64,000 nt of DNA, from the NCBI GenBank assembly GCA_009829735.1, contig CM020618.1, forward strand, positions 35,068,894 through 35,132,893, in the 5' to 3' direction. Below, piece after piece: positions 23,815-49,191 of the stretch. Position 1 is the first letter of the stretch; each line of letters starts with the position of its first letter. The notes beneath the pieces were generated by a model. That model was given only the letters and a program-made list of their open reading frames with translations. It did no database searches and was not told the DNA's origin. The stretch comes from Pyropia yezoensis. Its lineage: Eukaryota > Rhodophyta > Bangiophyceae > Bangiales > Bangiaceae. The position numbers and the translations under genes were made by a program.

Positions 23815-24044
23815 TCCCACTCACTAATCTCACACTCAAAGTCTCTCAAATCAAGTCCCTCACAAGTATACAAAAACCCATCAGAAATCCCTCTCTCACG
23901 TGTGGGTAGCGTAGTCCACCGCATCCCAGTGTCGGGCACGGGCCACGGCCGCCAACCATCACCACACGGCGGGCGTGTTCTGGCACCTGGTGCCCTCTGG
24001 TTGCCATCCCTGGTCCACGCCAAGTCGGGGCCAGGGATGCTACA
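23815..24044 (-). repeat. Partial 3' LTR of E
   Basis: It matches the last 230 bp (+ strand reading) of the 802-bp family D LTR at about 94% and ends GGGATGCTACA. The remaining LTR, including the MITE found in D, is absent on the left, where host sequence begins directly. Confidence 0.85.
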
Positions 24045-24224
24045 TAGCTCCCTCCCTAGTCCGGCACGTCCTCGGGCCGTACCAGGTGCCACCGTGCACA
24101 GCCTCGAGCACGTCCACACCAGGGCCGAGGTCGAGCGTCTTCACCCCGAGCGCGATCACCTTCTCCAATCCTGCCCCTCCCCTCCTTCACCTTGACCTTC
24201 CCGTTCCCCCGCATTCTGGACGAC

Positions 24225-26338: not shown

Positions 26339-26484
26339 CACTTGGAGGCAAGGAGGGTGAGAGTGCAGGGAGAAGGGAGGAGGGAAGAGGCGGAGAGAAG
26401 GGTTGCACGAGCGGGTGCTTGCTTGTTTCCTGGTAGTTCCTTGCTTGTATCGCTTGTTTTTCTTGATACACCCGTTCCCTTTTC

Positions 26485-28416: not shown

Positions 28417-28779
28417 TGTAGCATTATGGTCGGCCGTATTGTGACCCTAGTATTAGGGGGGCTACTTCTAATCCTTGGCTTTTAATTTGATAGTCCGTAC
28501 TGGTCACGGTATCTTTAAGTTACGTATGACCAGAGGGACTTGCATCTTGGGGTGGAGGGTAGTTAGTAGTGTCTCAGAGGGTTTATTACGAGGGGGCCGG
28601 CGGCGAATCCACCACCGGCCAAAGTAGAACAACAAACCCCTCCCATTTGGGCTCCCATCTTGGTCCCGTGGCTTGCGCTCCAAGGACAGCAACCTTGGCC
28701 TCCCGGTGACGTTGGTGCCGATCCCCCTTGGTGAGTGTTCCCTGAGAGTGGACGTGCGACGGATTCCTATTGTGCTACA
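28417..28779 (+). repeat. C 5' LTR (363 bp)
   Basis: It starts TGTAGCA and ends TGCTACA, a 7-bp terminal inverted repeat, and has the same length as the copy at 48783-49145. Confidence 0.94.
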
Positions 28780-28780
28780 T

Positions 28781-28798
28781 TGGTGGAGCAGCAGGGGA
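28781..28798 (+). other. Primer binding site, family C
   Basis: TGGTGGAGCAGCAGGGGA lies one base after the LTR and is identical to the sites of families A and D. Confidence 0.88.
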
Positions 28799-29004
28799 CG
28801 GGTTTCCGTCACCTTTGTGGTGACGCCGTCTTCGGCCCTGGCACACGGATAGGGATCCGGTCCTTTTCTTGTACTCGTGGTGTTGCGACCTGTTCGATTG
28901 TGTTGAGTTTTTACCTTTGACTGTGATCTACTGTTACTCTCCCCAATCTACCCCCTCGCTCTCTTATTCGTGGTGATTGTTACGTCGGTTGACTGATTGT
29001 GACT

Positions 29005-31189
29005 ATGTCTACCCAAGAGACGGGGAACGTTCAAGATGACGGATCGGCGTCGACGCCGACTCCGGAGGTGACTACGGGAACCGGGATCGGGAACCCGATC
29101 GACAACATTGAGACGCCAATGCTTTCCGGTGCCGGATCGACGTTTGGGCACGGCTCGGACGGCAGGAGGCGGGGGCCCGCCTCAACTGTCATCGACCGAC
29201 CTCACTCCGCCGCCTCCTTCACCAGGGGATTCCCTGATGGCATCATTGGCCCGCGTCGAGGCCCGGTTTTCCGGACTCGATGCTCGTCAAGAGCGGACGG
29301 AGGACGCAATGGCAGTGTTGATGTCAACACGCCACACGACGGGACCCCGTCGTGTTCCTCCCACACCGGTACGGTTTGAACCGGCCGGACTACTTTCGGA
29401 GTCCACCGGGGTCGACCCCGGCGCAGCAACTCCCGGACAAACCCCGGACACAATGGGGTATGGATCCGACTCGTCGGCAGAGTTGGAACGGAGTCACTCG
29501 GAGCGATACGCTCGGAGCACCCGAAGCGGACTCCGCGGACACGACCCGGCGGATACTTACGCCGGTGGAGAGTCGGTTATTGGGGGAGGGGGTACCCTCT
29601 CACAGTATCCCCACGACGAAGGACGCCAGGCAATTCGGGTTCCCGAGGTGCCGACGCCTGAAGTACCATCTTCAGTGGTGGAAGCTATGACCGCGCAGGT
29701 AACTGCGAGCCTACTGAAGCGGATGGAGTCCGATGAGTTTGCTCATCAACTGGCTAAGCGACTGGATATCCAGGACGCTGACACGGAGATCGTCAACGAG
29801 GTCTTCCGGTCGGTTCTTACTCCGGAACGTTATCGTTTGGAGGACCGCTCTACCACCGTATCGGAATCGATGCGTAATACGTCGCATCGGGCGATCCGCT
29901 CTATGCAGACCCTTATGAAGGGAGTCCCTATGTTCGGGGGGCCGAACGGACGCCCGTTGGCAGTCATCGGCTTCTTGACTAGCTTCAAGGCAGCCGCGGA
30001 CAAGGCCCTCGTTAACGAGGGGCTGGCCCTGGAGATCCTCCCGTTCTTTGTTGATGAACGGGTGCGAGGCATCCTTCGCCAGGCATCCCCGATGCCGGGA
30101 ATGAGGGTTGCGGCCACCCCCACGGATTACCGTGGGATTCTCAAGGAGCTGCTGAGCAGTTACCTCAGTGAGGACAAGTGCGAGGACCACTACCGGGCCC
30201 TGCGCACTGCCACCGCCCAGAGCTGGGAGGATGAGGAGATGTTCGGACGACGGATTCAAGAGCTCGACTACGAGCTGGGGAAGCTCCTCGGAGAAGGGGA
30301 GCTACGGGCCATCCTGTTCGCAGGAGTACCCAACTACGTGCGGATATCCGCACGGGGCGCCAACACGGCACGGACGAACTTCAGTCGACTGATACATATG
30401 TGAAAGTCCCTGGGGGACGCCTACCGGGTGCTTCACCGGGAGTGTGCTCTTGCCTCAAAGCCCAAGGGTGAGGGGAGCAAGCTCAATGTTACCCCGGTAC
30501 CGAGGCAAGACAAGATGGAACGGAAGGCCGCACCGGTACTGGTGGCTACCGATTACGCCCCCACGGGCGAGGAGGAACCACTGGTTGACCAGCAGGGCCA
30601 CCTGCTGTTACCGGCTACGCCGGTGATTGATAAGCAAGGTACGGTAGCGTGCATCGCTCCGGCGGGGACCCAGTTCCAGGTCAGCGAGGGCACGGGACGT
30701 CGCGTCCCGTACGTACGGACTACGGGGTACTCCCCGGTGACGGGTAACCCTCACCAACCCTTGCCAACATGGGCGGTGCGCACGGAGGCACCTCCGCAGA
30801 TTGCGGGCCGACCCAACCGGTTGGGGGAGTCCATGTTCCGGTTGACCCAAGGACCCAAGGCCTACCAGGGAGCAGGCACTCGGGCGCCCGAGGGAGGCAA
30901 CCGCAGCTACGGGGCTACCCCGATGCGAACTCAAGGGGGGACCGGCACGTCCGGATGTATGTTGTGTGGGGATCCCCAGCACTGGGTGTCTTCCTGCCCA
31001 CTCATCCCCGAGGAGCCTCGGCGGGCAGCGGCGCAACGCAAGGCATCCACCGGGGGGTATCCCGCCAGAGCACCCGGACCCGCACCGGGTAGGCAGCCAG
31101 CTCCAGGTGGAGTACTGGCCGTCGGGGAGGCACCTCCTCAGCCGGATGTCCCGGCGGACAGCACCTTACCAAGGGCGGGAAACGAGTAA
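29005..31189 (+). CDS. gag: C Gag region
   Basis: This is the structural protein region of family C. The N-terminal part is Ser/Thr/Gly-rich, followed by a capsid-like helical part (about 29680-30400) and a zinc knuckle CMLCGDPQHWVSSC (30955-30996) near the C-terminus. The likely start is the ATG at 29005, about 200 bases after the primer binding site. About two breaks are present. The nucleotide sequence consists largely of back-to-back palindromes of 11-20 bp, which is not needed by the protein. Confidence 0.82.
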
Positions 31190-31374
31190 GAGGAAGGATG
31201 ACCGGGGGGCGCTGGGGTAACCCAAGCAAGCCACCCCGGAGTACCGCGGGGAAAGCCCCACGGCGAGCGCGTTTGAGCCGGCGCCGCATCAATCCCCGGG
31301 TACACCTTCCGGCCCCGACGACACGGAGTCAGGGGAATGATTAGAATCCCCCGATAACGGGAGGCGAGGACGGG

Positions 31375-32205
31375 ATGCCCCGTCACGTTGAATCAGCCAA
31401 GGGCCCTGTCCAGGATGCCCAAGGAACACCGGATATCGGTGTAGGACATGTGCTGTTTACCTTGGAGAACTTCAAGGTATCAGCCACACTGGGGGTTGAC
31501 CCCCAGTCGACACGATCGTACTACCCTGTACTGGATACAGGGGCTGGACCCAACCTTATCCGGAAGGATACCCTCCCGGACAAGTGGCTTCCGCGAGTCA
31601 GAGTGACTCGGGGACCCACCATCAAGGACGCGAATGGTCGCCTCATTCGTACGACCGCAGCGATGTCGCTGCGGGTTACCATCGGGGAACTCACCACGGA
31701 AGTCGACTTCCTGGTGTGTGAGACCCTATCGGTGCCCTGCATACTGGGGTGCACCTTCATCAACGTTCACGTGGATGCAATCCGGCCAGGCCGGAGGACC
31801 GTCGAGCTTCAAGAAGCCGACGGGACGAAGCGAGGACATACGGCTATCGTCAGGGACCTGACGCTACAAGAGAGCCACGTTAACGTGGCTGAGGTGTACG
31901 CAAGCGTCGAGCCGAAGACACTTCGGTTGGCCAAGCGAACTCGCTTTGAGCTCCCGGTTAACTGCGACCTCGCAGGCATCTGCAGAGTCCGGTCCAACCT
32001 GCGGACGTACAAGCGCCATGGGTTGACCATGGCCAACGGTCTCATAGACCTCCCAGCAGGAGGGTCGTCCCTCCTAGTGATGGCGAACTATCGCCGTAAG
32101 GCAGTCACCCTCCCGAAGGGAACTATCCTCGGGATTGCCGAGCTCTACGAAGGAGATATCCTTTCCCCTGACAAGGAAGGTCAAGTGGAACCACTTGAGG
32201 TGCTG
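31375..32205 (+). CDS. pol: C protease region, ending at the D insertion
   Basis: Retropepsin-like protease with YYPVLDTGAGPNLIRKDTL (about 31520-31580); the motif DTGAG carries the catalytic Asp. It is followed by a conserved linker domain of the kind found between protease and RT in these elements. Element D enters in this linker, with the target duplication at 32206-32210. The RT part continues after D. Between gag and this frame, 31190-31374 holds no separate gene. Confidence 0.87.
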
Positions 32206-32210
32206 GCGGT

Positions 32211-33012
32211 TGTGGTATAAAACTTGATCCTCCCAGACACGTGTCAATATCCCTCGGGGGAAAGGGACAGGTAACACAGAACGGGGAACTACGAGAATGG
32301 TATGCCTGTTGCCTCACGTGCCTGCTCGCAGAGCAAACAGATACGCACGGTAGTGTACACGGGGAAGAGAAAAGCAAACGCGCAGTTGTTTTTTTCCTGA
32401 GGGCGCGGGCCAAGGGCGCCTCGCTGTCCATCTTACAGTGCGACCCCTCACTTGCCCTGGGGTAGACCAAGGAGGTGGCCCCCCTTCCAGTGTCCGACAG
32501 TTGTCCTGAGATGTTCAGATTTCAGCGATCTGGACGGTATGAGCCAATCAGCGCCCGTCAATCGCCCGAATATGAGCCGCCCGGCCGGGCCACTTCACGC
32601 GTACCCCCCCCTCAGTTGTGCCGATCGGCACAACTGCGGGGCAGCCAAGTGAGGGGTCGCACTGTAACGTGCATCTGGGGGAGCCTCGGCACGTTGGCCA
32701 GGTAGCCCCCCCATACCCCCGAGTGGCTCCGACCCGAGTCTAACCTCGTCAGGTCGGGGGCCACTATCACTACTAATTCTATTCCCACTCACTAATCTCA
32801 CACTCAATTTCTCTCAAATCAAGTCCCTCACAAGTATGCAAAAACCCATCAGAAATCCCTCTCTCGCGTGTGGATAGCGTAGTCCACCGCATCCCAGTGC
32901 CGGGCACGGGCCACGGCCGCCAACCATCACCACACGGCGGGCGTGTTCTGGCACCTGGTGCCCTCTGGTTGTAGTCCCGGGTCGGCGCCGAGTCGGGGCC
33001 AGGGATGCTACA
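32211..33012 (-). repeat. D 3' LTR (802 bp)
   Basis: On the minus strand it begins TGTAGCATCCC and ends ATACCACA. It contains the 229-bp MITE, a CCAAT box (about 32541) and near its minus-strand start the sequence shared with the partial LTR of E. Confidence 0.93.
32436..32664. mobile_element. Tc1/mariner-like MITE inside the D LTR
   Basis: It has perfect 19-bp terminal inverted repeats, CAGTGCGACCCCTCACTTG (32436-32454) and its complement (32646-32664), each bordered by TA. CAGT ends with TA duplications are typical of Tc1/mariner-type elements. At 229 bp it has no transposase and is non-autonomous. A 24-bp perfect palindrome lies inside at 32613-32636 (core TTGTGCCGATCGGCACAA). The same unit is in the other D LTR and in the duplicated copy, so it entered the LTR before D transposed. 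Confidence 0.85.
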
Positions 33013-33027
33013 TAGCTCCCTCCCTAG
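33013..33027 (-). other. Polypurine tract, D
   Basis: On the minus strand CTAGGGAGGGAGCTA directly precedes the 3' LTR. Confidence 0.65.
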
Positions 33028-33197
33028 TCCGGCACGTCCTCGGGCCGAACCAGGTGCCACCGTGCACAGCCTCGAGCACGTCCACACCGGTGCCGAGGTC
33101 GAGCGTCTACACCCCGGTCACGATCACCTGCTCCGATTCTTCCCCCCCCCTTCTCTCCTTCACCTTGGCCCTCTCGTTCCCCCGGAGTCTGGACATC

Positions 33198-35315
33198 ATG
33201 TCCAGTTCCGAGATCCAAGCTGGGCCCGTGGTTCCGGCGGCGAGTGTTGCGGAGGAGAACTCGGGTAGTCGCGCCCCACTCCTGCCTCCGGTTCCTCAGG
33301 TGTCGGTGTCGGCGCCGGTTGCCACGGCAGGGACGGATCGGGTTCCCCCGGCTTCTGCGTTGCACCCGGTCGAGACCCCCCCGGTGGGTCTCCCGGAGAT
33401 GCTTCTTGGGCAGGATCCTCTGGCGGGCCGGCGCTACTCCACGGTGGTCGGCAACGCCAGCGCGGCCCAGTGCCAACAGGATTGCTTGGATATCTGGCGC
33501 AAGGAACTCCAGCGCGGGGTCTTGACCAAGATGGACAAGACTCGTCTTCATACGGCGGACCAGATGCGCCTGGCACAACACCGCTCCCAGAGCTTCTCGG
33601 GTTCCTCTTGGGTTGCTCGCTTGGAGGATCTCCTTTTCGCGCTGGAGCTGGATCTACCCCTGACCGAGCGTCGCGTGTCCGCGTCCGTTCTCCGGTGGCC
33701 AGAGGAGGAAGGGTACGTCCACCGGGCGCTCAAGGTCTGGGACGAGGCGCTCAAAGGGTCGGGGAACCTGAACTGCGATCCCCGTCTAAGCATGGTCGCT
33801 CTGGAGCCGCCTTTCCTGACCCGAAAATACCCCATGTTGTCGCCGGCGCGGGAGCAGGGCGAGCGGCGCGGCCGCCAGCGTGACTTCATCGTGAGCTGCA
33901 ACCATCAGGAGTTCTGGAAGCTGGAAAAGGCTAACCGGGCGGCGTACTACCCCAAGGTCATCCCGCAGCAGCAGGAAATCGAGATCCCAGTTGGGTTCGC
34001 TCCATCCAGCATCCCCTTCACCTGGTACTTCTTGGACGCCTTGACCCAGGCGTCGATCAAGGGCTTCTTCCAATCGATCCCGTACATGATGTACACCTCC
34101 GAGATGACGGTCTTGGCTGCTAACAACTGGCTCCACGAGGTCTTGGTGTCCATCCGGCTCTGGCTTCTCCCCGACCTCATGATGGTCTGGACTGTCGACA
34201 AGTTGACCGTCGACTTCCTGTGCAGCCAGGACGAGGAGTACAAGGAGCTCTTCCAGGCGATGATTGACTTCCGGCGTCGGCTGCCGGTACATGACCGGAG
34301 CTTCTTGAACATGATCGCCGACCAGAACAGCCCGCGTCGGGATGGCTCGGGTTGGGTGCAGGTGGTCTATCAGTCTTCTCCGGCCAAGGTGCAGCTAGCG
34401 ACACCGCTTCCGGCGTGGCCGCAGCTAGGCAGCTTTCCTGCTCCGGTCGCCCTCGATCTTCTACCAACTGGGCCGCCGGTGCAAGAGTCGGGATGGGCCG
34501 CGGCGGTCAGTCGGGCGTCTGCGGCAGTTCCGCTTGCTCCTGTTGCACCTGCCGTCCCGGTGGCTTCGCCTGGACCGTCGCCGGCGCGTTTGTCTTCCGC
34601 TCCGTCTGTGCCGGTGCTTCAAGCTCCTCCGGCACCGCGCTTGTCTGCAGCTAGTCTGGGGGTGGCTGTGCGGTCACCGACTACTCCGGCCGTTCTTCCT
34701 CGGACGCCTTCTTCAAACGTCGGCGGCCCTGTGCCTCCGCTGGAGTTGGGGACTCCGGCTTCTGGGGCTGTTGTGGACCGTCCGGTAGTGGCATCCTCGG
34801 GGCGGTTCGAGATCCCGCCGCCGACTCTGCGCCTTACCCGGTTCCGGGTGCCTGACTGGTACCTGAACCAAGGTGGCCCGACATGCGACCAGTACGACGT
34901 TGGTATGATTGAAGACCAGCTGGGTCGCCTTCCAGTGCAGGTTGAGGGCGTCGGGTCTTCCCTGGTGCTGGGTACTTACGCCAGCGTCTTGAACAACGTG
35001 GTTGACCGGGTGTTTGCTTGCGCGGACAGCGGCCAGATGTCGGACAGCCCGGTGGTTGGCGAACTTCTGGCGACTTTGACGCGGCATGGCTTGGCTCAGC
35101 AGTGGTCAGAGACCTTCACTGGCTTCCAGGGGCGCCGACAGGCATATCTGGATGGGCGGGAGCCCCCTGCAACTACCGGTACTACTCCGATGGCGTCATA
35201 CCGGGATGCACCGCGCCCACCGCACTACGTCATCCCGCCTTCCTCCGGTTCCCGTCGTGCCGCGGAGGCAGCGCTGGAGGATACTCCCGCGGCACAGCGT
35301 CCGCGCCTGGAGTAG
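33198..35315 (+). CDS. Antisense ORF of family D (705 codons), function unknown
   Basis: It runs opposite to gag-pol, between the 3' LTR and the end of pol, starting at MSSSEIQ; the frame is open further upstream into the LTR (from 32943). It has a Pro/Ser/Val-rich N-terminus, then a globular central domain with RWPEEEGYVHRALKVWDE, YYPKVIPQQQEIEIPVGF (33944-34000), YMMYTSEM, LAANNWLHEVL and LTVDFLCSQDEEYKELFQ, a long Pro/Ala linker, and a C-terminal helical domain (LVLGTYASVLNNVV to LAQQWSE, about 34953-35109). The central domain aligns with the family A antisense protein and the C-terminal one with family C. There is no zinc knuckle, protease or membrane helix that would identify it as a second Gag or Env. 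Strong conservation in E supports it being a real protein. Confidence 0.78.
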   Translation: MSSSEIQAGPVVPAASVAEENSGSRAPLLPPVPQVSVSAPVATAGTDRVPPASALHPVETPPVGLPEMLLGQDPLAGRRYSTVVGNASAAQCQQDCLDIWRKELQRGVLTKMDKTRLHTADQMRLAQHRSQSFSGSSWVARLEDLLFALELDLPLTERRVSASVLRWPEEEGYVHRALKVWDEALKGSGNLNCDPRLSMVALEPPFLTRKYPMLSPAREQGERRGRQRDFIVSCNHQEFWKLEKANRAAYYPKVIPQQQEIEIPVGFAPSSIPFTWYFLDALTQASIKGFFQSIPYMMYTSEMTVLAANNWLHEVLVSIRLWLLPDLMMVWTVDKLTVDFLCSQDEEYKELFQAMIDFRRRLPVHDRSFLNMIADQNSPRRDGSGWVQVVYQSSPAKVQLATPLPAWPQLGSFPAPVALDLLPTGPPVQESGWAAAVSRASAAVPLAPVAPAVPVASPGPSPARLSSAPSVPVLQAPPAPRLSAASLGVAVRSPTTPAVLPRTPSSNVGGPVPPLELGTPASGAVVDRPVVASSGRFEIPPPTLRLTRFRVPDWYLNQGGPTCDQYDVGMIEDQLGRLPVQVEGVGSSLVLGTYASVLNNVVDRVFACADSGQMSDSPVVGELLATLTRHGLAQQWSETFTGFQGRRQAYLDGREPPATTGTTPMASYRDAPRPPHYVIPPSSGSRRAAEAALEDTPAAQRPRLE

Positions 35316-35460
35316 TAATTGGAGGCAAGGAGGGTGAGAGTTATGGGAGAAGAGGGGAGGGAAGAGGCGGAGAGAAGGGTTGCTCGAGCGGGTGCTTGTT
35401 TTCCTTGATTGTTCCATGCTTGCATTGCGTGTTTTCCTTGATTTACCCGTTCCCTTCTTC

Positions 35461-38400
35461 TCAATCCTCTTGTTCCGCATCCGTTGCAGGTGAGCTCGGC
35501 TCGTCCTGAGGGTCATGATCGGCCCCGTCCTCCTGGTCCTCCTCCGAGTCCGACTCCAGGATCTTGCCGGCTCTGGCCACCGGAGTGCCCTCAATCCCGG
35601 TCCGTCGCGTATAGGCACAGACGTCCGCGATGGGTAACCGGTTTGAGGGTTCCCAGGTATCATCTGCCGGGTTAAAACCGAACCAGCGTACTCGCAGGTA
35701 CAAGCGCCCGTCTCTCCAGGCATGGTCGACAAACTTGACGTTGACATATTCCCGGCCGTCTTCTTGGGATAGCCAGGGTACTGCGGCCCGCTTGCGCCGG
35801 GTCAAGTCCCGTTTGCTTGGCGGTGGAGCTCGGGTGACATGGTTGCTGCTCACCGGGTACGGGGAGCCATCTACGTCTAGAAAGAAGGTCCAGCCATCCG
35901 TATTCTGGATCTCATAAGGTCCATCCGTCTTAGAGTCCAGCTTCCCCCGGGTCTTGCTATAGTTGTCCACAAAAACCCAGTCGCCACCACCCAGTTCCTT
36001 GTTCTTTTCCTGGACTCCCTTGTCATAGTCCCGCTTGTATTGCTCCTGGGTCTTTGAGATTGACTCCTTCACTCTGGGGAGCAGGAGCTTCAGTTGTTCC
36101 AGGAACTCATCCTTGGCCTTGGGACCTGACTTCAATGCAGGCTGGAGACCGTCTGGTATTCTTTCCAGGGAGAAGTTGGTCAGCCGCCTTGGGGTGACAA
36201 AGTCGAGTGAAGCGACCCCCGTTGTCCGGTGAACTCAGGAGTTGTAGGCTAGAGTGAGGACAGCCAGGAGCTCATCCCAGTCTTCTTGGTGCTCCTCCAC
36301 GTAGTGCCGTAGCATATCCACAAGGGTCCGGTTAAATCGTTCCACCTGGCCGTTCGTTTGCGGGTGGTACGTCGTGGTGAACAAGTTCTTGATGCCCATC
36401 AGGTCACAGACTCCTTGGAAGAACAGGGATGCAAACTGGGGGCCATTGTCTGTTAGGACGGAGTCTGGAGGGCCATAGGCAGCTATCCAGTGCTCGCAGA
36501 AGGCTGACGTGACATCCAGAGCCGTAATGGTCCTCAGCGGGATTGCTCGAGTGAACTTGGAGAACCGGTCACAAATGATGAGCAGGTATATGTTGCCGCT
36601 GGATGTTTCAGGTAGGGGCCCCAGAATGTCCATGCTTAAGCTTGCAAAGGGCTCCGCCGCCGGGAATAGGCGTAGCTTAGTAGAAGTCTTCTTCCTCTGG
36701 GACAACCGGTTCCTTGCACAAGAAACACAAGCCTCCAGGTGCTTATGGACGTCACTGGCCATGGTTTCCCAGTAGTAATGTCGTCGCATTGAAGCATACA
36801 TCCGATTGATGCCAGGATGTCCGGCCTGGGGAGACGAGTGTTCCAGGCGTACGATGTCAGCTCGCAGACTTCGGGGTACGTAAACTTGAGTTGCCCCATC
36901 GAAGGGTGACACCCGTACCAGGAGTCCATCTGTAGACTCGGAGAAACGACCGTTCCGGTTCAGGTCCATCTGGTGGCGAAGCTCTAAGCAATGAGGATCC
37001 GTCAGTTGTGCCTCCAGCATCCGGTGAATGGTCACCGGTTGATGAGCTTCAGGGGTCTCATATAGGGGAGCATGCCAGCCACGTCCGACATTCGGGAGGA
37101 TGAAGCAAGGTATTTCCTGCGGGATAGGACCGGTGTCGGCTGCAGGAGTCTCCAGCCGGGACATGGTGTCGGCGCAGTGGTGCTCCCTCCCTGCTCTGGT
37201 GCACACCTTGTACTTGAACTCCGAAAGGCGTAAACGCCACCGGGCGACCCTTCCTTGGCTGCGGTCCATACATAGTAGCCATCTTAGGCTGGCGTGGTCC
37301 GTCCGGATGAGGAACTCTTGTCCTTCAAGATATGGACGTAACAGGAAGCAAGCCCACACGACCGCCAAGCACTCGCGCTCCGTCGTGGAATAATTCTTCT
37401 CGGCTGGATTCAGGACGCGACTGTAGTAGCCTATCGGGAGGAAGTGCCCATCAGGTTGCTGTTGGAGTAGTGAGCACCCCACCTGGACGCCACAGGCATC
37501 AGTCTCCAGAACAAACTGGCCCTCCCGCTTGGGTAACGCCAGTACTGGGGTGGTGGTCAGGCGCTTCTTGAGCTCTTCAAAGGCCGCGGTTTGCTTCTCG
37601 TCGAACACCGGGAGTTGTGCGGGAAGCTTCTTGCTGGTAAGCTTGGTCAGTGGCCGGGAAATCAGAGCATAGTCCCGTACGAGCCGGCGATAGACGTTGC
37701 ACATACCCAGGAAGCCCTTGAGTTCCGTCTGGGTTTTGGGTTGCCGTGCATGCCGGAGGGCCTTGATGTTCTTCTCATTGACTCGGAGCTCCCCCGGACT
37801 CAGCACGTGCCCCAGGTACTCCACCTCAGTCTCAAACAGGTGGCACTTCTCGGCCTTGAGGGTAACTCCAGCCTTGGACAGGAGGGCCAGGACCTTCCGA
37901 AGGTGCTCCAGGTGTTCCGCTGGGGTCTTGGAGAAAACGATAATGTCGTCCAGGTAGACCAAACATGTTCTCCACCTTAGCCCCGACAGGATGATGTCGA
38001 TGGCTCTTTGGAAGGTGGCCGGAGCATTGTTGAGACCAAAAGGAAGACGCTTGCACCGGAATAGTCCCAGGTGGCACGTGAAGGTGGTCCTGTCCTTGTC
38101 CTCGTCAGCCAGAGGGATTTGCCAGTAACCGGCATTACAATCCAGCGTCGAGAAGAGGGTGGCATCACCAAGAAAGTCGATGCAATCATCCATCCGGGGT
38201 ATCGCGTATGCATCCTTGACGGTCATCTCGTTCAGGCACCTGTAGTCAACGCAGAAACGGAAGTGACCGCCAGGTTTCGGGACGACTACCACCGGGAAGG
38301 CCCACTCGCCATCAGACGGCTCGATAACATCCATCTTGAGCATCTTGTTAACCTGCTTCTCAATCTCATCCCGGCGATGAGGTCCAGCCCGGTATGGTTG

Positions 38401-39423: not shown

Positions 39424-39551
39424 ACAGGGTGTCCAGGCGGCTACCGGTTGAGCAGGTAACTGCCGTCCTTTCTCCCGGCACGCAAGGGGAGAACGGGTAG
39501 AAGTACCCTGCCGTTGGAGGTTCGGGAAGACACTTGGGGAGAGCGCCTGCC

Positions 39552-41312
39552 CTACTCGTTTCCCGGGTCCGAGGAGTCCTTAGAGGTTTCGGTCTCCAGG
39601 TCGAAGTCCGTAGGAGCTTCCTTGGCCAGAGCCTCCGTGATGCTCTGTAAGGCTGCCACTCGGATTGCGTGTACCTGTGCCTTGTCCATCTTGGAGGGTG
39701 CTCGCCGGTCAGCCCAGTTGACCGCCTTTGCAAACACCAGTCCTTGACGCTTGAGTTTCTCCAGGAGATCCTTGGGAATGGTCGGGCACTGGTAGGACAG
39801 GTGGTCCTCCTTCTGGCACAGCCAGCCAGACCGGAACCGCTGGTTCTTGACCTGCTTGGGGGAGACCAGAGAAGGTTGCTCCTTAGAAACGAAGCCGCCC
39901 CACTTGTCCCCTGACCCCATGGGTGAAGCCTCGCCAACTGCGAGTACCGGTACAGGGCTATCACCTCCCTTATACTTGTCGGGTCCGGGAGGGACTCGCG
40001 ACAACGGCTTGGGAGTTGATACCATGGCAGCTTGGAGGGCCTTGGCTTGCCGGTACTTGCCCTGGGTGTAGGCCAGCAACTGCTGGAAGGCATGTTCTTG
40101 ATGTTCCTGGTTGTAGTTCTCCGCATCCACTTGAAGATATTCAGGAAGCCCTTCCGAGAAGATCATCTTGAGCCTGTCCTCAGCGTAAACGTTGCCACAA
40201 GCCTCGCTCATCTCCCGGACACGACGGGTGAATGCCTCTGGAGTCTCTTGTCTCTCCATGGTTGCCCGGTTCAGCCTGCCGACTGCTTTATGCAGGGAGT
40301 CCGCGTCAGCGTAATTGGACAGGAGCCAGTTGACCGCCTCCGGATAACTCGCAACGGTACGCCCGACAATGTGTCCGGCAGAATCTGGTAGAACCTGTGC
40401 AAACCGCTGTTCCGCTTCTCCGGTCATGAAGTTAACCAGGAGGTAGAGAGCCTTGCCCTCGGACACATCGTTGTCATTGCATGCCTTGACAAACCGGCGC
40501 AGGAAGGCAAAGATAAGCGCCGGTCTCTTCCCGGAAAACTTAGGATGTCCCCCAAAGCTCGGCTGCATTCGCCGGTTCAGGGATGCCATCTTCTTGGCCA
40601 TCTTCCGGTTGTAACCTTGGTCTTGGTTCTCCAGCCGGTAGTTACCTCAATACGTGACCTTGTTCAGGGTGGCATCTCCCACTTGGTGGGCAGGGAAGTC
40701 AAACTCGACGAGCCTGCGCCGGGTGGGACCGGGAGATGCATCCCAGTCATATCCCTCCTCAGAGCTGGACAAACTGGTCTCGCTGGTGCTAGAGCGACGG
40801 TGACGACGCCGACGCCTCTGGCTGCTCCGGTTACCGGTCTTGGAGCTCCCCGCCCTACAGGATGCAAGGGAAGGAAAAGCTTGGCCGGTCCCAGGAGTCG
40901 AGGTCTCAGGGAGACCCGTAGAATCAGTCACAGCGGTGCCTCTGGCACTGCTAGTGCCCACAGGAAGAGGTGTATACACCCAGCTGCCATGTATGGGTCC
41001 AGGAGTAAACACACCAGGGGCTATCCCTGGAGGTTGAGGAGTAGAACCGACAGGAGGGAGACGTCTGCTGCGAGCGGACTCAAACGCCGTTGACCCCGGG
41101 GTGGCTCCCATAGGAGGAACAGCCGGAGGAACGGGAGCAGGTGTTGCTTGGCCGCCTGTAGACTCCAGTCCGGTACCGGATGTCACACCCAGGTCTGCTT
41201 CACCCGTAGGGAGCACGCCGGGTTGGGCACCGTCCCCCGCGGTGACCAGGGATGCGTCAAGGGACGCGGGGTCTACCCCTTCGGGCACCGTCGTGCTAGG
41301 GAGGGTAGCCAT
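39552..41312 (-). CDS. gag: D Gag region
   Basis: Read on the minus strand, a Pro/Thr/Ser-rich N-terminal portion (MATLPSTTVPEGVDPASLDA) is followed by a helical capsid-like portion (ALIFAFLRRFVKACNDNDVSEG, also recognisable in A Gag as VFEFLRRFTKACDDNAIS) and a nucleocapsid-type segment (WLCQKEDHLSYQC; the E copy shows CX2CX4HX4C). It ends PGNE. The leader from 41313 to 41504 holds nothing else. One break lies in the region. Confidence 0.85.
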
Positions 41313-41504
41313 GTTGGTCTCTTGACAGCCACAGTCCAGTTACCTGCGTGTCCAAAGATCGCAAGACCACAAGAGAGGGGTTGGAGAGCCAGGAATGGGA
41401 TTCCCGTGAACGGGTGCAAATAATTCCCAACCCACAGAAAAAGACAGAACAAGAACAACCCAACCGCTGCTCCCAAATGTCTCTTCTAAAACACTCCGAG
41501 TAAA

Positions 41505-41522
41505 TCCCCTGCTGCTCCACCA
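41505..41522 (-). other. Primer binding site, family D
   Basis: On the minus strand TGGTGGAGCAGCAGGGGA lies four bases inside the 5' LTR and is identical to the sites of A2 and C. Confidence 0.88.
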
Positions 41523-41526
41523 AATA

Positions 41527-42328
41527 TGTGGTATAAAACTTGATCCTCCTAGACACGTGTCAATATCCCTCGGGGGAATGGGACAGGTAACACAGAAAGG
41601 GGAACTACGAGAATGGTATGCCTGTTGCCTCACGTGCCTGCTCGCAGAGCAAACAGATACGCACGGTAGTGTACACGGGGAAGAGGAAAGCAAACGCGCA
41701 GTTGTTTTTTTCCTGAGGGCGCGGGCCAAGGGCGCCTCGCTGTCCCTCTTACAGTGCGACCCCTCACTTGCCCTGGGGTAGACCAAGGAGGTGGCCCCCC
41801 TTCCAGTGTCCGACAGTTGTCCTGAGATGCTCAGATTTCAGCGATCTGGACGGTATGAGCCAATCAGCGCCCGTCAATCGCCCGAATATGAGCCGCCCGG
41901 CCGCGCCACTTCACGCGTACCCCCCCCTCAGTTGTGCCGATCGGCACAACTGCGGGGCAGCCAAGTGAGGGGTCGCACTGTAACGTGCATCTGGGGGAGC
42001 CTCGGCACGTTGGCCAGGTAGCCCCCCCATACCCCCGAGTGGCTCCGACCCGAGTCTAACCTCGTCAGGTCGGGGGCCACTATCACTACTAATTCTATTC
42101 CCACTCACTAATCTCACACTCAATTTCTCTCAAATCAAGTCCCTCACAAGTATGCAAAAACCCATCAGAAATCCCTCTCTCGCGTGTGGATAGCGTAGTC
42201 CACCGCATCCCAGTGCCGGGCACGGGCCACGGCCGCCAACCATCACCACACGGCGGGCGTGTTCTGGCACCTGGTGCCCTCTGGTTGTAGTCCCGGGTCG
42301 GGGCCAAGTCGGGGCCAGGGATGCTACA
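41527..42328 (-). repeat. D 5' LTR (802 bp)
   Basis: It is about 98.9% identical to 32211-33012, and the MITE lies at 41752-41980. The base after its right end starts the second GCGGT target duplication. Confidence 0.94.
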
Positions 42329-42333
42329 GCGGT

Positions 42334-45300
42334 CGCCGAGACCGCCGAGCGACAGCAGCCCGATGACGGGAAGCCTTACCCATCGGCGGCTCCGGCGGAC
42401 ATGCCGCCAAAGGACCAAGAAGCACTGAAGGCCCTGGCCGAGGCTGACCTCGACCACCTTTCCCCTTCGGTAGCCGACGGGGTACGTCGGATGCTAAGAA
42501 AGCATGGCGTCATGTGGACAGGCGGGGCCTTGGGTACCATTGGGGCAACCCAACATCGTATAGACCTGGTACCAGGCGCACGACCCGCCCGCTCACAACC
42601 GCACCGAGCGGGACCTATGCAACGAGAGATCGTTGATGGAGAAGTGAAGACGATGAGTGAAGCTAAGGTGATCCGACCTTCGATGTCGGAATGGGGTGCC
42701 CCAGTCGTTATCGTACCGAAGAAGGATCAAACCCCTCTGTTTTGCATCGATTATCGACGCCTCAATTTGGTTACCAAGAAAGACTCATACCCTTTACCAA
42801 GGATGGATGAATGCATCGACTCCCTGGGGGAAGCTACGGTCTTTACCACCATCGACTGCAATGCCGGATACTGGCAGATCCCAGTGGCGGACGAGGATAT
42901 CCCCAAGACGGCGTTCGTCTGTCACAGTGGAGTGTACGAGTTCCTAAGGATGCCCTTCGGATTGTCCAACGCCCCCGCTACATTCCAGTGGGCTATCGAC
43001 ATTATACTGTCGGGGGTGAAGTGGCTTAACTGCCTAGTGTACCTCGATGACGTCATCGTCTTCTCGCGTAACATGGATGCCCATGTGCAACATGTTGACG
43101 AGGTACTCACCCTCTTGAGGGACGCCGGGGTAACCCTGCGTCTGAAGAAGTGCGCCTTCTTCCAACAGACGGTCGAGTATCTGGGCCACCAGATAACCCC
43201 TGGTAAACTAGGGGTACTCGAAGCCAATACCCGGGCACTCCGGGATGCCCGGTTCCCTAACACCCAGACGCAGCTCAAGAGCTTCCTGTGAATGTGCAAC
43301 GTATACCGACGGTTCGTCAAGGACTTCGCTCGGATAGCTAAACCGTTAACGGTTCTTACGAGCAGTACCTTACCCAAGGTACTCCAACCCCCTTCACCTA
43401 GCGAAGAGGAGGCATTCGAGTCGCTGAAGCGAGCCCTACTAGCCCCACCCGTCCTTGCGTTACCGCATAGACGGGGTACCTTCGTCATCGATGTCGATGC
43501 GTGCGATACACAAGTGGGATGCACCCTATTACAGGGAGAGACGTTGATCGGTTCCGATAACGTTATCCCGGACCTACGTCCGGTAGGGTACTTCAGCCGG
43601 ACACTCAACCCGGCTGAGCGTAACTACAGAGCCACCGAGCGTGAGTGCCTTGGGGTTATATGGGCAGTGCAACTGCTCCGTCCATACCTGGACGGCTCCA
43701 GGTTCATCGTGAGGTCCGACCACGAACCCCTACGATGGCTCCTCAACCTTGGTGACAAGGATTCCGATAGCCATGGGAGGCTAGCCCGATGGAGGCTGAA
43801 GATGGCCGAGCACGACTACCGCACGGTGTATAAGGCTGGGTCAACCCACCACCTCGGAGACGCGTTGTCTCGACTCGACACCCCGAGCGGGGATACCCGC
43901 TCGGTGGACGAAGACATCCCGGTGGTACCGGTCTGCATGGTGGGTAACGCCGTCCAAGGTATGGTTGACCATACCATGGCGCACCGAGCATGCCCACTGA
44001 CTCTCGCGGACTTTCGCGAGGCACAAGCCAATGACGATTACTGTAGACGTCATCGTGCTAACCTCCTGGCCGGCACGGCCGGCATCTTCTCCGAGAATGA
44101 AGACGGACTCATATACCGGCGGGCACCCGCCGATGGACGACATCAAGCCGTGGTCCCCGTGTCCTTACGGCAAGCCGTCATGGAACGAGAACACGAGAAC
44201 CCTACAGCCGGACACCCGGGGGGTTCACGTATGTTCGCAGCAATGCGAAGGTTCTTCTACTGGCCAGCAATGGCCGTCGACGTGGTCGACCACGTAAGGG
44301 GATGCCACCCCTGTGCACGTAACCGCATGAGTCTACATAAGCAGGCGTCTGCCATGAAGCTATTCCCACCCGATGGGCCCAACGAGCAAGTCGCTATCGA
44401 CATACTCGGGCCACTTCCGGTAGCGGAAGAAGGGAACAGGTACAGCCTGGTCATGTCGGACCGCTTCACTAAGCTGTCACGAGCGGCAGCCATCCCGAAT
44501 GATACGGCATACACGATTATGAACGCAGTGGTTGACCACTGGGTCAGTGCATACGGAGTCATGAAGCAACTCCTCTCCGACAACGGAGCAAACCTTACGT
44601 CAGCATTCTGCACTAGGGTCCTGGGCATGTTCGGGATCGAACCACGTCGGGCATCCGACTACCACCCGCAGACCAACGAGCAGGTGGAGCGGTTCAACCG
44701 CACCATCGTCAAGATGCTACAGTGCTACGTGGCCGAGCACACGAACACTTGGGACAGGCTCCTGTCCGTACTCACCCTGGCATACAATGCCAGGCCACAT
44801 CGGAGCACGAACATAGCCCCTCTAGAGTGGGTCATGCCACTAGGCGTCGGTAACCTGACGCTGCCGCCAGGCAGGTGCACTCGGTATGATACACCGAAAG
44901 GCCGACCGGCCGAACGTATACACCTAGCTTGGTTGGCCAAGCTATCGTGGATGATACCGAAACTCAAGGGCGCCCTTGACCGTACACAACTTCGATACAA
45001 GAAGAACTTCGACGCCCGGCTACGGGTGCGCAACGCTACCCTGATGACAGGTGACTGGGTCTACATCAGACACCAGAAGTTCCGGGAGAACAAGCGTATG
45101 CAACCGGTCAAGGGACCGTACCAGATTCTCCACAGAGATGACCACTCTGTTATCTTACACTCCGATACGGAGATCCAACGCATCAGTGTGAATGATGTCA
45201 CACCAGCGCCGAAGCCAGAACATCCTCAGCCGGTACCGGCTGGGTTGCTACATGAAGCGCTTACCACCCACCGGTCGGATGACCCGGTGGGACCGGATGG

Positions 45301-45469
45301 AATCCCATACCAGGTGGAGAGCATCGTCGGACATACCGACCCAGATGTACCAGAACCCTGGTACGTCACGGTAATGTGGGTCGGTTACGACTCACCCACC
45401 TGGGAACAGGCGGCGAATATACCCCGCCACCTACTCATGCCTTACATGAGGCGACGCCGCCTCCTGTAA
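42334..45469 (+). CDS. pol: C Pol, RT to chromodomain
   Basis: This is the continuation of C after element D. RT has QPHRAGPMQREIVDGEV, YPLPRMDECIDSLGE and VYLDDVIVF (43036-43062). RNase H covers about 43480-43870 (IDVDACDTQVGCTLLQ, NYRATERECLGVIWA). Integrase has the HHCC region (CHPCARNRM), IDILGPLPVAEEGN, LSDNGANL (about 44573) and HPQTNEQVERFN (about 44665). The C-terminal tail YVTVMWVGYDSPTWEQAANI (about 45360-45420) is a short chromodomain-like module. One break is present. The duplicated copy at 57647-60715 is open across the same stretch. Confidence 0.9.
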
Positions 45470-45919
45470 CAACCCAACCGAATCCGACTTCGGATGTAGG
45501 GGGGTGGGGCTTAGTCCTACTAAGTAGGGTGCGACATGGTTACGGCAGACTTACGTTTCTATGTCAAATCATACTTAGGTTTCTAAGTCCAGCCAAGCTA
45601 AGGTAACTAAGTAAAACCTGAACCTTAATAAGTTAACTTAAAGGTAAAGGCTGACTTAGATAATATCGAAGTAACTAGGGGGCTTACAAGGGAGGATGAC
45701 CTTCCCAAGCCAATACACAAAGTGACGGAGGATGACCTCCCCAAGCATGAACCAACCGGAAGAAGTTGGACGGGAGGCAAGGCACCACTGAGCCAGACGG
45801 GGTATTCCCCAGGGCAACAAACATAGGCAAGCAATGCCCCCGAAGGGGATGAGTTTATACTCACTAATACCCGGCCACCATCAGGGTCACCGGGTCCCTC
45901 ACTCTCACTCCCACAACCA
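45470..45919. other. Non-coding spacer of C between pol and the antisense ORF
   Basis: No gene is seen. Its left part (45510-45670) is unusually AT-rich and has eight ACTTA/TAAGT pentamers in about 160 bp. A GGAGGATGACC..CCCAAGC unit repeats at about 45691 and 45728. It is where sense and antisense transcripts would converge and may carry both polyadenylation signals. Confidence 0.5.
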
Positions 45920-48292
45920 TCAGAAGGGGTTACCCCCGCCAGCAGAAGGGGGCCAGTCACGCGTCGTCGCGTACACTTCCGTACTCCAACGGTCGGCTAT
46001 CTCACGCCGGTTGAGCGCCTGCGCTACCTCAGCGCTAAGATGCACAAGAGTGCTGTCACCAGCCTCCACAGCATCCAGAGCCATCTGTAGGTGGTTGAGC
46101 ACCCAACCGAAGCAACGCGCGGTACCGACCAGCGCAGCACCTGGGGGGATGTCCCCCCAGCTAACCGGAGGCGCTTCCGTCAACTCACGAGAGAGAAGGG
46201 CGTTCACGCCCTCATACCACAAGCGGGGACCCCCGTCGGGCATGACGGGAGCCGGCGATGCTACCGGAGGGACCGGAGCCATAGCCGGAGGAGTGGACAC
46301 CGCCACCGCCGGAGACGGCGGTAGCTGGTAAGGAGCACGGTTCGACCGTGAAGGAGGACCAGACTCCTGGGCAGAACGCCCACCGGGAACCCGGTGGAAC
46401 TCCCCACGACGACGATACGTCTCGCGGCCCCCACCAGTGGAGTCCCACTCACGGCGACGGCGACCCGTCCCCATAGGAGTCGGTTTACCGAACCAGGGGG
46501 TTCCCACCTGGAGAGGGTCGGGCAGGACCACGGGAATACCCAGGCTGGGTACCGACTCGGTGGATGCCCACCCCTGGTATCCATCCTCACCCGAGATAAC
46601 TCGGCGGATACGTAGCGAGTGACGAGGCAACGGCACATGCGTGGGCCGAGCGGCCAGCACACTGCTGAAGTAGCGCAGGCAAGGACCGGTGTCAAACCGG
46701 AAAGCCGGGGCGGGCTCCCACCCCTCTTGCCAACCAGGCGGGCGCAACAGAGTGTATACGGGCGCAGGACCGTTACCGGTCTGCAACGCGCGCGTTACAT
46801 CCGTGCGGAATGGGTCCGCCATGACACCATGGTTTCGCCGCCAGCTGGACGCCGACTTCAGACCACCCATGGTCGGGAAAGGCGGCGTCAGCCACAGATA
46901 CGGGGGATCCCCCGGGTAGTAATCCAAACCGGGATACCGGTTGGTACCAGGCACGAGCTGCCCGAAGGCCACAGGGGTCTGGGTAGCAGCCACCCCGTGG
47001 GCACCCGCAGGGTAATCCACCTCCCGCGGCAGCGCGGGGGCAACCAAGTCGCACACCCCAAAGGCGGGGTGGAGGGCAGCCTCAGGCCGCCCGACCCGGG
47101 CGCGCCAGAGTTGAGCATGCCGGTCGTCCGGCTGGCTGAGTATCCAATGATGCTCGGCGCGAACCGCGTCAGGCTGGGCAACCAGCCGAGCCAACTCCCG
47201 CTCCCAACAGGGGTCCAACGGGACCGGACGGGAGGTACCTCCGCGGCGACTCGACGGGTGGAAGTCCACCCGCATCCGACCGCCCGAATCCATGGGCTCT
47301 TGCACGGTCAAGCTGCGCACCCGGGCCAACAGCTCGGAGACCGACAACGGTGGATGTCCCACCGTAGAGGCGTCGCCGCCACTCGCGGAGGCGGTACCGC
47401 CAACCGCAGAGGCGACGCCGCCACCAATCAAGCCAACGCGGCCACCCAACGGGGCAACCCGGGCCGGCCCAGGAAGAAGCGCCGGCGCCGGCGGAAGCCC
47501 AACGGGTAGGTGCACCGGCGCCGGAGCACGGGGACGAGGAGGAAGAAGTAGGGCGGGCACCCGCCCGGAGTAGCTCCCGGTGTCAACCGCCATGGGGGAA
47601 GGAGCGTCTTGACCGCTCGACGCCCGCGGCACCGCGGGTAGGGTACCGGCGCAGGCCCCACCCGTCGACGTCGCCCCCGCCTCGGAAGGGGGAGGCACTT
47701 GGACAGCCTCGGGAGCCTGAGCACCAGCCGTGCGGGCACCCGCACCGTCTTGACCGGCCACCCCGGGTGTCGCGCCACCACCACCACCCGCGTCAACGTC
47801 GGGGTCGCGTTGAGGATGCACCGTCCGGACTCCCGGACCACCTTGCCCAGCCGGAGTCGGCCGGGGATCGCCACTTCCGCCGTAGGGCGGGCCATCTTGG
47901 GGTAGCTGCGGCGAGCCGGCACCGGCACCAGGCTCCATCCGGGCAGCCGGCAGAGAGGGGGTAGAAGCCGCCACGCGCGGTTGACCGCCGGGTTGACCCC
48001 CGACCGACGGCACCGTCGTGCCGCTGCACACGGACGACAGTCCTCCGGCCGACAGACGGACGGACACCGCAGGCTCGTCGTCCTCAGACGAGCTCGCCCC
48101 GTAACGCGCGGCGGCAGGACCGACAGGCGCGTCGTCCTCCATCTCCTCCCCGATCAGGAGGTCTTTCTCCTCCCCAAGCACCTCGGGACAGGACATGGTA
48201 ACGGGTGGCACAGTCCCCCGCGCCCACAAGCCGTCGACGGCTACGAACCGGTACGGTGGGACCACCAGGACGAGCCAGGTAGGCGCGGGCAC
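45920..48292 (-). CDS. Antisense ORF of family C (790 codons), function unknown
   Basis: It is open for 790 codons on the strand opposite gag-pol. The first 330 residues are Pro/Gly/Ala/Val-rich and probably disordered, and include an acidic stretch (SSSEDDEPAVS). The middle includes RAEHHWILSQPDDRHAQLWRA and LDYYPGDPPYLWLTPPF. The C-terminus (about 46140 down to 45990) has GTARCFGWVLNHLQMAL then VAQALNRREIADRWSTEV, whose spacing resembles the C-terminal domain of the family D protein (GTYASVLNNVV then LATLTRHGLAQQWSE). Otherwise similarity to A and D is weak. No known family is recognised. It is equally open in the duplicate at 61166-63538. Confidence 0.7.
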   Translation of the reverse strand: MPAPTWLVLVVPPYRFVAVDGLWARGTVPPVTMSCPEVLGEEKDLLIGEEMEDDAPVGPAAARYGASSSEDDEPAVSVRLSAGGLSSVCSGTTVPSVGGQPGGQPRVAASTPSLPAARMEPGAGAGSPQLPQDGPPYGGSGDPRPTPAGQGGPGVRTVHPQRDPDVDAGGGGGATPGVAGQDGAGARTAGAQAPEAVQVPPPSEAGATSTGGACAGTLPAVPRASSGQDAPSPMAVDTGSYSGRVPALLLPPRPRAPAPVHLPVGLPPAPALLPGPARVAPLGGRVGLIGGGVASAVGGTASASGGDASTVGHPPLSVSELLARVRSLTVQEPMDSGGRMRVDFHPSSRRGGTSRPVPLDPCWERELARLVAQPDAVRAEHHWILSQPDDRHAQLWRARVGRPEAALHPAFGVCDLVAPALPREVDYPAGAHGVAATQTPVAFGQLVPGTNRYPGLDYYPGDPPYLWLTPPFPTMGGLKSASSWRRNHGVMADPFRTDVTRALQTGNGPAPVYTLLRPPGWQEGWEPAPAFRFDTGPCLRYFSSVLAARPTHVPLPRHSLRIRRVISGEDGYQGWASTESVPSLGIPVVLPDPLQVGTPWFGKPTPMGTGRRRREWDSTGGGRETYRRRGEFHRVPGGRSAQESGPPSRSNRAPYQLPPSPAVAVSTPPAMAPVPPVASPAPVMPDGGPRLWYEGVNALLSRELTEAPPVSWGDIPPGAALVGTARCFGWVLNHLQMALDAVEAGDSTLVHLSAEVAQALNRREIADRWSTEVYATTRDWPPSAGGGNPF

Positions 48293-48782
48293 CCGCGTTT
48301 ATGACCACAACAGGCCACGAGAAGCGTCGCAAGTGCGCGGGTCGACCTGCGCCCCACGGGGCTATGAACGCGCTCCACCCAGGCACTTGGGCGGGCTTGG
48401 ACACACCCCCGCACGGGGCAACCACAAGGGGGTCACCCCGAAAGCGCCCCCGCGAAAAGCGGGCAGCGGCCGCCCCCATTCACTCGGTAACACGAGAGGG
48501 GCTCCCCTACCACCAGACGCCTGGTGGCGGATCCGCTTGCACCACCCCTCGGAAAGGGGGGTCGTGAACAGAAACCCGCATCGGGAATTTAACAGTCCGG
48601 AAAACGGATCGTGTGTGTACCACACAAAGGGGGGCACCCCCCTCGGACAACCTCGAAAAGGGGTGTCTGTCGCGACAGGGCGCAAAGACCCACCCGACTG
48701 GTAAACGGTCACGCGACCCACTTACATTCGGTAACCCGAATGCAACTCGACCCGAGGACGGGCCGAATCTAAGGGGGGGATA
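48293..48782. other. Non-coding 3' region of C with dense hairpins and polypurine tract
   Basis: This is the presumed leader of the antisense transcript. It has no gene. Hairpins include CATTCGG-TAAC-CCGAATG (48725-48742), CCACCAG-ACGC-CTGGTGG (about 48519), TGTGTG-TAC-CACACA (about 48611) and CTGTCGCGACAG (about 48666). The polypurine tract AAGGGGGGGA (48771-48780) lies two bases before the 3' LTR. Confidence 0.7.
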
Positions 48783-49145
48783 TGTAGCAATATGGTCGGC
48801 CGTATTGTGACCCTAGTATTAGGGGGGCTACTTCTAATCCTTGGCTTTCGAGTTGATAGTCCGTACTGGTCACGGTATCTATAAGTTACGTATGACCAGA
48901 GGGACTTGCATCTTGGGGTGTAGGGTAGTTAGTAGTGTCTCAGAGGGTTTATAACGAGTGGGCCGGCGGCGAATCCACCGCCGGCCAAAGAAGAACAACA
49001 AACCCCTCCCATTTGGGCTCCCATCTTGGTCCCGTGGCTTGCGCTCCAAGGACAGCAACCTTGGCCTCCCGGTGACGTTGGTGCCGATCCCCTTTGGTGA
49101 GTGTTCCCTGAGAGTGGACGTGCGACGGATTCCTATTGTGCTACA
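48783..49145 (+). repeat. C 3' LTR (363 bp)
   Basis: TGTAGCA to TGCTACA, followed by the TCTTC target duplication and then by the continuation of E. Confidence 0.94.
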
Positions 49146-49191
49146 TCTTCTCGGCTGGAGTCAGGACGCGACTGTAGTAGCCTATCCGGGG

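Follow-up and report, generated by a model that had tools for sequence, protein, structure and literature searches.

Element C, a long terminal repeat (LTR) retrotransposon of the Ty3/gypsy type, occupies 28417–49145 of a 64,000-nucleotide stretch of Pyropia yezoensis DNA (the window; assembly GCA_009829735.1, contig CM020618.1, positions 35,068,894 to 35,132,893 of the forward strand). It was found to carry short palindromes along its length far in excess of shuffled sequence, and this excess is near certain to be real. A second element, D, is nested within C and was used as an internal control; family A in the window and families F and G elsewhere in the genome share the property. The explanation that we put first, at somewhat less than an even chance, is that C, A, F and G carry element-wide, family-specific arrays of dyads that would be selected and read as DNA by a protein or host factor.

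Perfect inverted repeats with loops of at most 8 were counted in the 10.6 kb of C without D (28417–32210 plus 42329–49146) and in D itself, each against 1000 local dinucleotide shuffles. C contained 127 with arms of at least 6 bp (shuffle mean 28.0, maximum 46), 64 with arms of at least 7 (versus 7.5) and 23 with arms of at least 8 (versus 2.0). An earlier reading of the sequence by eye (the original prediction) had described the tiling from eleven quoted palindromes; all eleven were exact and in place in the window, and the excess proved larger than it had first been put. D had been called almost free of palindromes, and the counts agreed: 23 versus 22.0 at arms of at least 6, a number reached by 429 of the 1000 shuffles, 7 versus 5.8 at arms of at least 7 and 4 versus 1.6 at arms of at least 8, although a few long palindromes do occur there (arms of at least 9, 3 versus 0.3). 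Such stems took up 15.9% of the bases of C and 3.1% of those of D. Examples in C are CCGGGGTCGACCCCGG (29406–29421), CCCTCGTTAACGAGGG (30006–30021), CGTGCGGATATCCGCACG (30337–30354, arms of 9), CCGCAGCGATGTCGCTGCGG (31655–31674, arms of 9 around a TG loop of 2), AGCCACGTTAACGTGGCT (31873–31890), TCAAGGGCGCCCTTGA (44964–44979) and CGGGTGGAAGTCCACCCG (47255–47272), the last lying within the antisense open reading frame (ORF), where the copies that have diverged most show it in a less perfect form.

Coding alone was not the cause, as had been argued. At arms of at least 6, six C frames exceeded the maximum of 200 shuffles that kept protein, codon usage and dinucleotides: gag frame 1 (16 versus 6.3), gag frame 2 (10 versus 3.4), protease (PR; 17 versus 4.3), pol part 1 (10 versus 3.5), pol part 2 (28 versus 8.3) and the antisense ORF (27 versus 8.6). 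These shuffles were conservative because 82–88% of the bases stayed unchanged. Four D frames remained within them (6 versus 6.5, 4 versus 3.5, 1 versus 2.3 and 3 versus 1.8). Palindromes had been placed in every part of C, which was borne out for gag, PR, pol, the antisense ORF and the spacer (5 versus 0.9); the 364-bp LTR, with 2 versus 0.7, gave too few to judge, and the range originally given (28417–48782) ended short of the 3′ LTR. Palindrome sites were mostly within coding DNA, with mean spacings of 74.5 and 86.1 bp. At arms of at least 6 the excess in C fell mostly at even loops (loops 0, 2 and 4, 84 versus ~9.5), loops 3 and 5 giving 21 versus ~5.3 and loop 1 giving 4 versus 4.2. Among controls from the window, 13000–18000 gave 21 versus 17.5, 23815–28416 gave 11 versus 10.9 and 20500–23800, with a guanine-plus-cytosine (GC) content of 78%, gave 58 versus 33.5. 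The ankyrin region gave 15 versus 10.7 at arms of at least 6, yet 5 versus 0.8 at arms of at least 8, a count raised because 99-bp tandem repeats multiply one match.

The property had been thought particular to C, but it was shared by A, F and G. Twenty further loci bearing a reverse transcriptase (RT) and covering families F, G and E (L031–L050) were chosen from 150 listed matches. Family F was rich (L044, 58 versus 15.6), as was family G (L045–L048 and L050, 51–56 versus 12.5–14.4). The two subfamilies of E, which made up 13 of the 20 loci (L031–L035, L037–L043 and L049), showed mild ratios of 1.3 to 1.9 at arms of at least 6 and 1.1 to 2.7 at arms of at least 7; L036, which also matches A sequence, had a ratio of 2.0. 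Family A in the window was rich too, its first count having been inflated by an inverted duplication, and later site counts were made from 3809 on. Four of seven arbitrary genome stretches had ratios of 0.9 to 1.5 and three (L051, L053 and L057) of 2.1 to 2.8; these three are not clean host controls, because each shares sequence detected by BLAST with A, F or the 7356–13000 part of the window. In an RT tree made by a quick method, C, F, G, A and D fell into one supported group of 14 rows, metagenomic proteins included, with D near A and E far outside. Since D shows no excess but lies near A, either D lost the property or the property arose more than once.

C contained 114 hairpins with at least five pairs around four bases. 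A G-C pair closed 87 of them, and 61 had a central YR step (27.7 expected). The self-complementary middles CG and TA (30) were not preferred over CA and TG (31), and the centres were strand-symmetric (CA 17, TG 14). The even centre of C was GNYRNC, found 368 times versus 242 in shuffles (1.5-fold), with GGNYRNCC at 76 versus 31.6; an example is TCGGCGTCGACGCCGA (29044–29059), whose centre GTCGAC fits the motif. The flanks of GNYRNC in C were paired at rates of 0.46, 0.46, 0.48, 0.35 and 0.32, the first three comparing with 0.20–0.34 in six other sequence sets. Family A had an odd centre, AASTT (35 versus 8.8), in which S was equally C or G and thus strand-symmetric, with flanks paired at 0.60, 0.66, 0.63, 0.43, 0.43, 0.51 and 0.40; CTCTCCCCAAGTTGGGGAGAG (11817–11837, centre 11827) is an example. 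AASTT occurred 11, 9 and 7 times in D, E and the host set (versus 11.3, 9.1 and 17.1) and was not raised in C or G either. The arms around GNYRNC in C had no base consensus, yet they covaried, with z of 8.4, 8.6, 9.0, 4.0 and 2.4 at positions 1–5 against a null of independent columns; in A the arms covaried with z of 2.3, 5.6 and 4.6. The dyads measured about 14–19 bp in C and A. No helical phasing of the centres was seen at 10–11 bp, and a weak phasing at 147–160 bp in C (R 0.10–0.11 versus about 0.029) did not recur in A and is not trusted.

Variants among C copies were then compared inside and outside the stems. For the gag-RT region 23 of 30 C loci were used, L001 being left out because of D and six others because of broken flanks, and an alignment column was dropped if it held more than two gaps (3852 of 3882 kept). 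For the antisense ORF 11 sequences were used, namely 10 of 40 listed matches and the window copy. Over both regions, 13 of 206 variants present in at least three copies fell in stems, as against 186 of 932 singletons (Fisher's test, 4.9e-7), and the singletons fell there as area predicts. When a stem was scored if either allele forms one, the counts were 29 of 206 and 236 of 932 (p 3.7e-4). For synonymous gag-RT variants alone they were 10 of 106 shared and 63 of 324 singletons (18 of 106 and 80 of 324 by the symmetric definition), and for hairpins with a YR tetraloop, stem and loop together, 6 of 206 and 95 of 932. Shared variants avoided stems and singletons did not, indicating selection in the active life of the element rather than mutation. 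That the palindromes were kept by selection while the element was active is fairly well supported by these comparisons, which were of related copies within one genome.

Reverse transcription itself might instead build the palindromes, by quasi-palindrome correction through template switching, in which one arm is copied onto the other with the centre as the fold-back point. This was the first of three causes put forward in the original prediction; it would give arms that are strictly Watson-Crick but otherwise unconstrained in sequence, equal treatment of the two strands, and differences between families that follow the enzyme. Its best support was an excess of clustered gains of pairing (20 versus 8.8 under random placement), several of them one subfamily event counted in several copies. 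Clustered losses were fewer than under that null (18 versus 52.2), which arm copying alone need not produce. When copies were compared for changes raising arm complementarity, as the idea required, singletons produced no surplus arms: gains numbered 31 versus 30.9 in the null at arms of at least 6, and 42 versus 54.6 at arms of at least 5. Post-insertion mutation thus neither creates nor spares palindromes. Of the shared stem variants in gag-RT, eight were uncompensated and there was one compensated pair, whereas arm copying strong enough to account for the missing variants should, by our estimate, leave about nine compensated; a compensatory G-C to A-T change was common to 6 copies, and no double change was found in the 11 antisense ORF sequences. 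The clearest subfamily difference, at column 1476 of the gag-RT alignment (near 31350 of the window), altered both arms, four of the 23 copies (L009, L011, L018 and L030) carrying a different palindrome with 8 changes over the two. A comparison of F loci at 79% identity showed one-sided breaks in 63 of 244 stem pairs and compensation in 11, the latter being 11 of 18 double changes; the share of unchanged pairs was 0.668 versus 0.613 for slid partners. By these alignments the palindromes appear to turn over across longer times, and we consider arm copying an unlikely origin. The dyads seem rather to have arisen in place through substitutions and to have been maintained by selection during the element's active life.

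Whether such selection would act on RNA or DNA was addressed through the pairs in the stems. At third codon positions facing a stem partner, where the choice between C and T or A and G is mostly synonymous, G.U pairs were avoided as strongly as A.C pairs (33 versus 90.4, or 0.37, and 41 versus 116.3, or 0.35, summed over five sequence sets: C, A, two F loci and G), indicating that ordinary RNA folding does not explain the palindromes. Internal stem positions left free were filled by Watson-Crick pairs in 224 cases versus 87.4, G.U in 16 versus 34.4, A.C in 36 versus 46.0 and other combinations in 60 versus 168.2. A.C was reduced less than G.U, which would if anything speak for the minus strand; transition mismatches of either kind were less reduced than the other mismatches. 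The handling of G.U as a mismatch, together with the strand-symmetric centres, points to DNA and not RNA, and the evidence that the sensed form is DNA is good but indirect. The same data do not separate recognition of duplex DNA from recognition of DNA hairpins. The G.U tests spoke against selection for an RNA fold, our first idea.

Two RNA-based explanations were weighed against these results. In the first, dispersed hairpins would be packaging or assembly signals for Gag, each Gag having its own loop preference. RNA-virus assembly by packaging signals likewise uses many degenerate stem-loops dispersed through coding RNA (PMC4751978). The C tetraloop hairpins with their G-C closing pair share a common loop feature, as such signals do; loop size is family-specific, and in C so is the closing pair. 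Hairpins occur over the entire genomic RNA, which folds better than shuffles, and in F the continuous paired run ended at least one pair before the centre in all 25 stems listed, as a loop requires, the centre bases pairing in 3 of 15 even stems. The avoidance of G.U at third positions and within stems is unlike packaging signals, as are central motifs equal on both strands, and the folding advantage of the sense strand is small; packaging signals are quite unlikely to be the main cause.

The second is an RNA folded throughout, which would thereby evade RNA silencing or nucleases; a highly folded genomic RNA was the second cause in the original prediction. Folding on the plus strand supported it in part: three segments of C had mean energy z of -1.16 to -1.75 and F, G and A of -1.09 to -1.74, as compared with -0.23 to -0.47 for the first 5 kb of D, E and a host stretch. 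Energies lay below shuffles along the element, as in genome-scale ordered RNA structure. C folded better than shuffles on both strands (mean z -0.88 to -1.80), and the difference between plus and minus strands ranged from -0.39 ± 0.14 (G) to +0.04 ± 0.20 (C pol). A generally folded RNA, or genome-scale ordered structure, requires neither a central motif, nor a fixed centre parity, nor the avoidance of G.U, all of which were observed, and we regard this explanation as improbable. Folding-energy scans alone would label these palindromes RNA structure.

The explanation that we favour, selected arrays of dyads sensed as DNA, is closest to the third cause originally proposed, arrays of sites for a dyad-binding protein. 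Each C and A site would consist of its own reverse-complement-symmetric centre, even in C and odd in A, surrounded by arms in which exact Watson-Crick complementarity would be needed and the sequence would be free. The DNA may be sensed as a two-fold symmetric duplex, or as hairpins extruded from DNA or formed in complementary DNA. The putative reader would be encoded by the element itself (Gag, integrase or the product of the antisense ORF) or recruited from the host, and its reading of the family site would serve to label the element's own DNA, protect it or direct its handling. In these recently active retrotransposons the coding DNA appears to bear a further constraint, acting along the whole sequence, that ordinary RNA structure does not explain. 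If this is confirmed, it would point to a step of the life cycle that reads the self-complementarity of DNA around a short centre that differs by family. A bolder form, which we hold to be doubtful, is a self-recognition code in DNA symmetry, made up of a family centre and self-complementary arms of any sequence. Such a code would mark the element along its whole length without constraining its proteins and, whether read from duplex or from extruded hairpins, would be a new mode of self-marking for mobile elements.

Several results weigh against selected dyads read as DNA. Exact complementarity with free arm sequence, that is, arms that covary without consensus, is unlike ordinary dimer sites, and in this respect the third cause fits less well. 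In ordinary chromatin, stems as short as 5–8 bp would probably not be extruded as cruciforms. No reader protein was found, the C antisense ORF having no Pfam match, and no clear centre was found in F or G. GNYRNC was mildly raised in the six other sets too, 1.2- to 1.4-fold (host, 583 versus 436; D, 255 versus 199), so that the speciality of C is its paired flanks and not the six centre bases. A slight folding gain on the sense strand (G, -0.39 ± 0.14; F, -0.30 ± 0.16) would suit RNA, as would the weaker avoidance of G.U than of A.C in F alone (8 versus 14.2 and 8 versus 23.8). Long-term conservation was weak: arms diverged by 0.197 versus 0.217 outside them between F loci at 79% identity, and the two directions of comparison in G disagreed (0.835 versus 0.838 and 0.900 versus 0.854), the stems of L045 not being kept in L048 although those of L048 were kept in L045. 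Finally, the 23 and 11 copies used for variants are not phylogenetically independent.

Comparison with known systems gave partial likenesses. Short dyad symmetries in centromeric DNA have been proposed to act as non-B DNA; unlike these, the dyads of C lie in retrotransposon coding DNA, and C copies are scattered over three large contigs. In VANC anti-silencing of Arabidopsis VANDAL transposons, the recognized sequences are plain 8–9 bp motifs in non-coding tandem repeats (PMC5735166). Both there and here, short family-specific DNA motifs accumulate and shift quickly between families; the present sites differ in lying in coding DNA and in having self-complementary arms of free sequence. AASTT with paired flanks was found in A only and paired GNYRNC flanks in C only, a family specificity of the VANC type, and no VANC-like protein was identified for these families. 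Ty3/gypsy elements in which an antisense ORF precedes the 3′ LTR, plant Retand being one, resemble C in their LTRs, 5-bp target-site duplication, order of PR, RT, RNase H and integrase, and long antisense ORF. Perfect palindromes along the whole element, present in C, were absent from the descriptions of such elements found in a limited literature search, and none turned up there for LTR retrotransposons generally, in agreement with the original prediction.

A further possibility is that the palindromes are integration targets, new copies landing in old ones. The central YR step of C resembles retroviral target preferences. Palindromic targets are known for integrases of LTR retrotransposons (Tos17, cited in PMC6911290), and their weak two-fold symmetric motif is comparable to the present centres. 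The even centres of C do not fit the odd, 5-bp duplications of C and D, and nested insertions miss the sites: none of six nested-insertion breakpoints in C copies fell in stems, six being few. This explanation is highly improbable. Chance, base composition or codon usage has a negligible probability: C is GC-rich and partly codon-constrained, and E loci and GC-rich stretches are mildly raised (1.3- to 1.9-fold), but neither the dinucleotide shuffles nor those that also keep codons reached the counts in C.

The structure of C was that of a Ty3/gypsy element: its LTRs enclose, in order, PR, RT, RNase H and integrase (Pfam matches above cut-off), and a 5-bp target-site duplication, TCTTC, lies on both sides (28412–28416 and 49146–49150). 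The LTRs (TG...CA; 28417–28779 and 48783–49145, plus strand) were 97% identical. Between them on the plus strand were gag-region frame 1 (29108–30403) and frame 2 (30428–31189), the latter showing, on inspection by eye, a CX2CX4HX4C knuckle and both without a Pfam match; the aspartic protease region up to the D insertion (31375–32210, PF13975); pol part 1 with RT (42401–43291, PF00078); and pol part 2 with RNase H and integrase (43292–45469, PF17917, PF17921 and PF00665). The pol frame had one interruption in the window copy and none in another copy. No C-terminal chromodomain, the mark of chromoviruses, was matched in the C integrase by Pfam, and a match in A scored 21.4 bits, under the cut-off of 25.1. 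A spacer (45470–45919) was followed by the antisense ORF of 790 amino acids (45920–48292, minus strand), which matched no Pfam family and had two matches among 8000 candidates scored. D (32211–42328) has its pol on the minus strand and is flanked by a 5-bp duplication, GCGGT (32206–32210 and 42329–42333). The body of family A (3809–12050, plus strand) contains a zinc knuckle, RT, RNase H, integrase and an antisense ORF. In the 107 Mb of genome searched, which comprised three large contigs (C1–C3), a piece of C gave 40 scored matches from 1013 candidates, the window copy included; nearly all were 95–98% identical, and copies were spread over all three contigs. No relatives were confirmed in IMG/VR.

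Some minor observations were made on these elements and on the rest of the window. The window copy of C lacks 18 bp at 31951, a multiple of three, present in the other aligned copies shown, and 29 other C loci were 16–18 bp longer than the window copy. In a relative elsewhere (P0001 and P0121, each with a longest contig of 10136 bases and so possibly one contig), pol part 2 was 94% identical, whereas for the antisense ORF identity was 57%, with 67% of the length covered; the antisense protein seems to evolve much faster. The antisense ORF proteins of A (9871–11985) and D (32943–35315) were distantly related (E 7e-9); neither was clearly related to that of C (E 0.14 and 0.054). A 9.25-kb direct duplication of 99.88% identity (39501–48754 and 54747–64000) carried D's right portion together with the 3′ portion of C, and the inverted duplication in A sequence (414–3253 and 4140–6979; 2.84 kb, 98.8% identical) had its copies 886 bp apart. 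An ORF at 13105–15234 combined RVT_1 with a weak match to Dam N6-adenine methyltransferase (27.2 bits, cut-off 28.1), a combination that DIRS-like elements also have. The 99-bp tandem repeats of the ankyrin-repeat ORF lay at 19342–20201, and the GC content reached 82% within 21001–23000.

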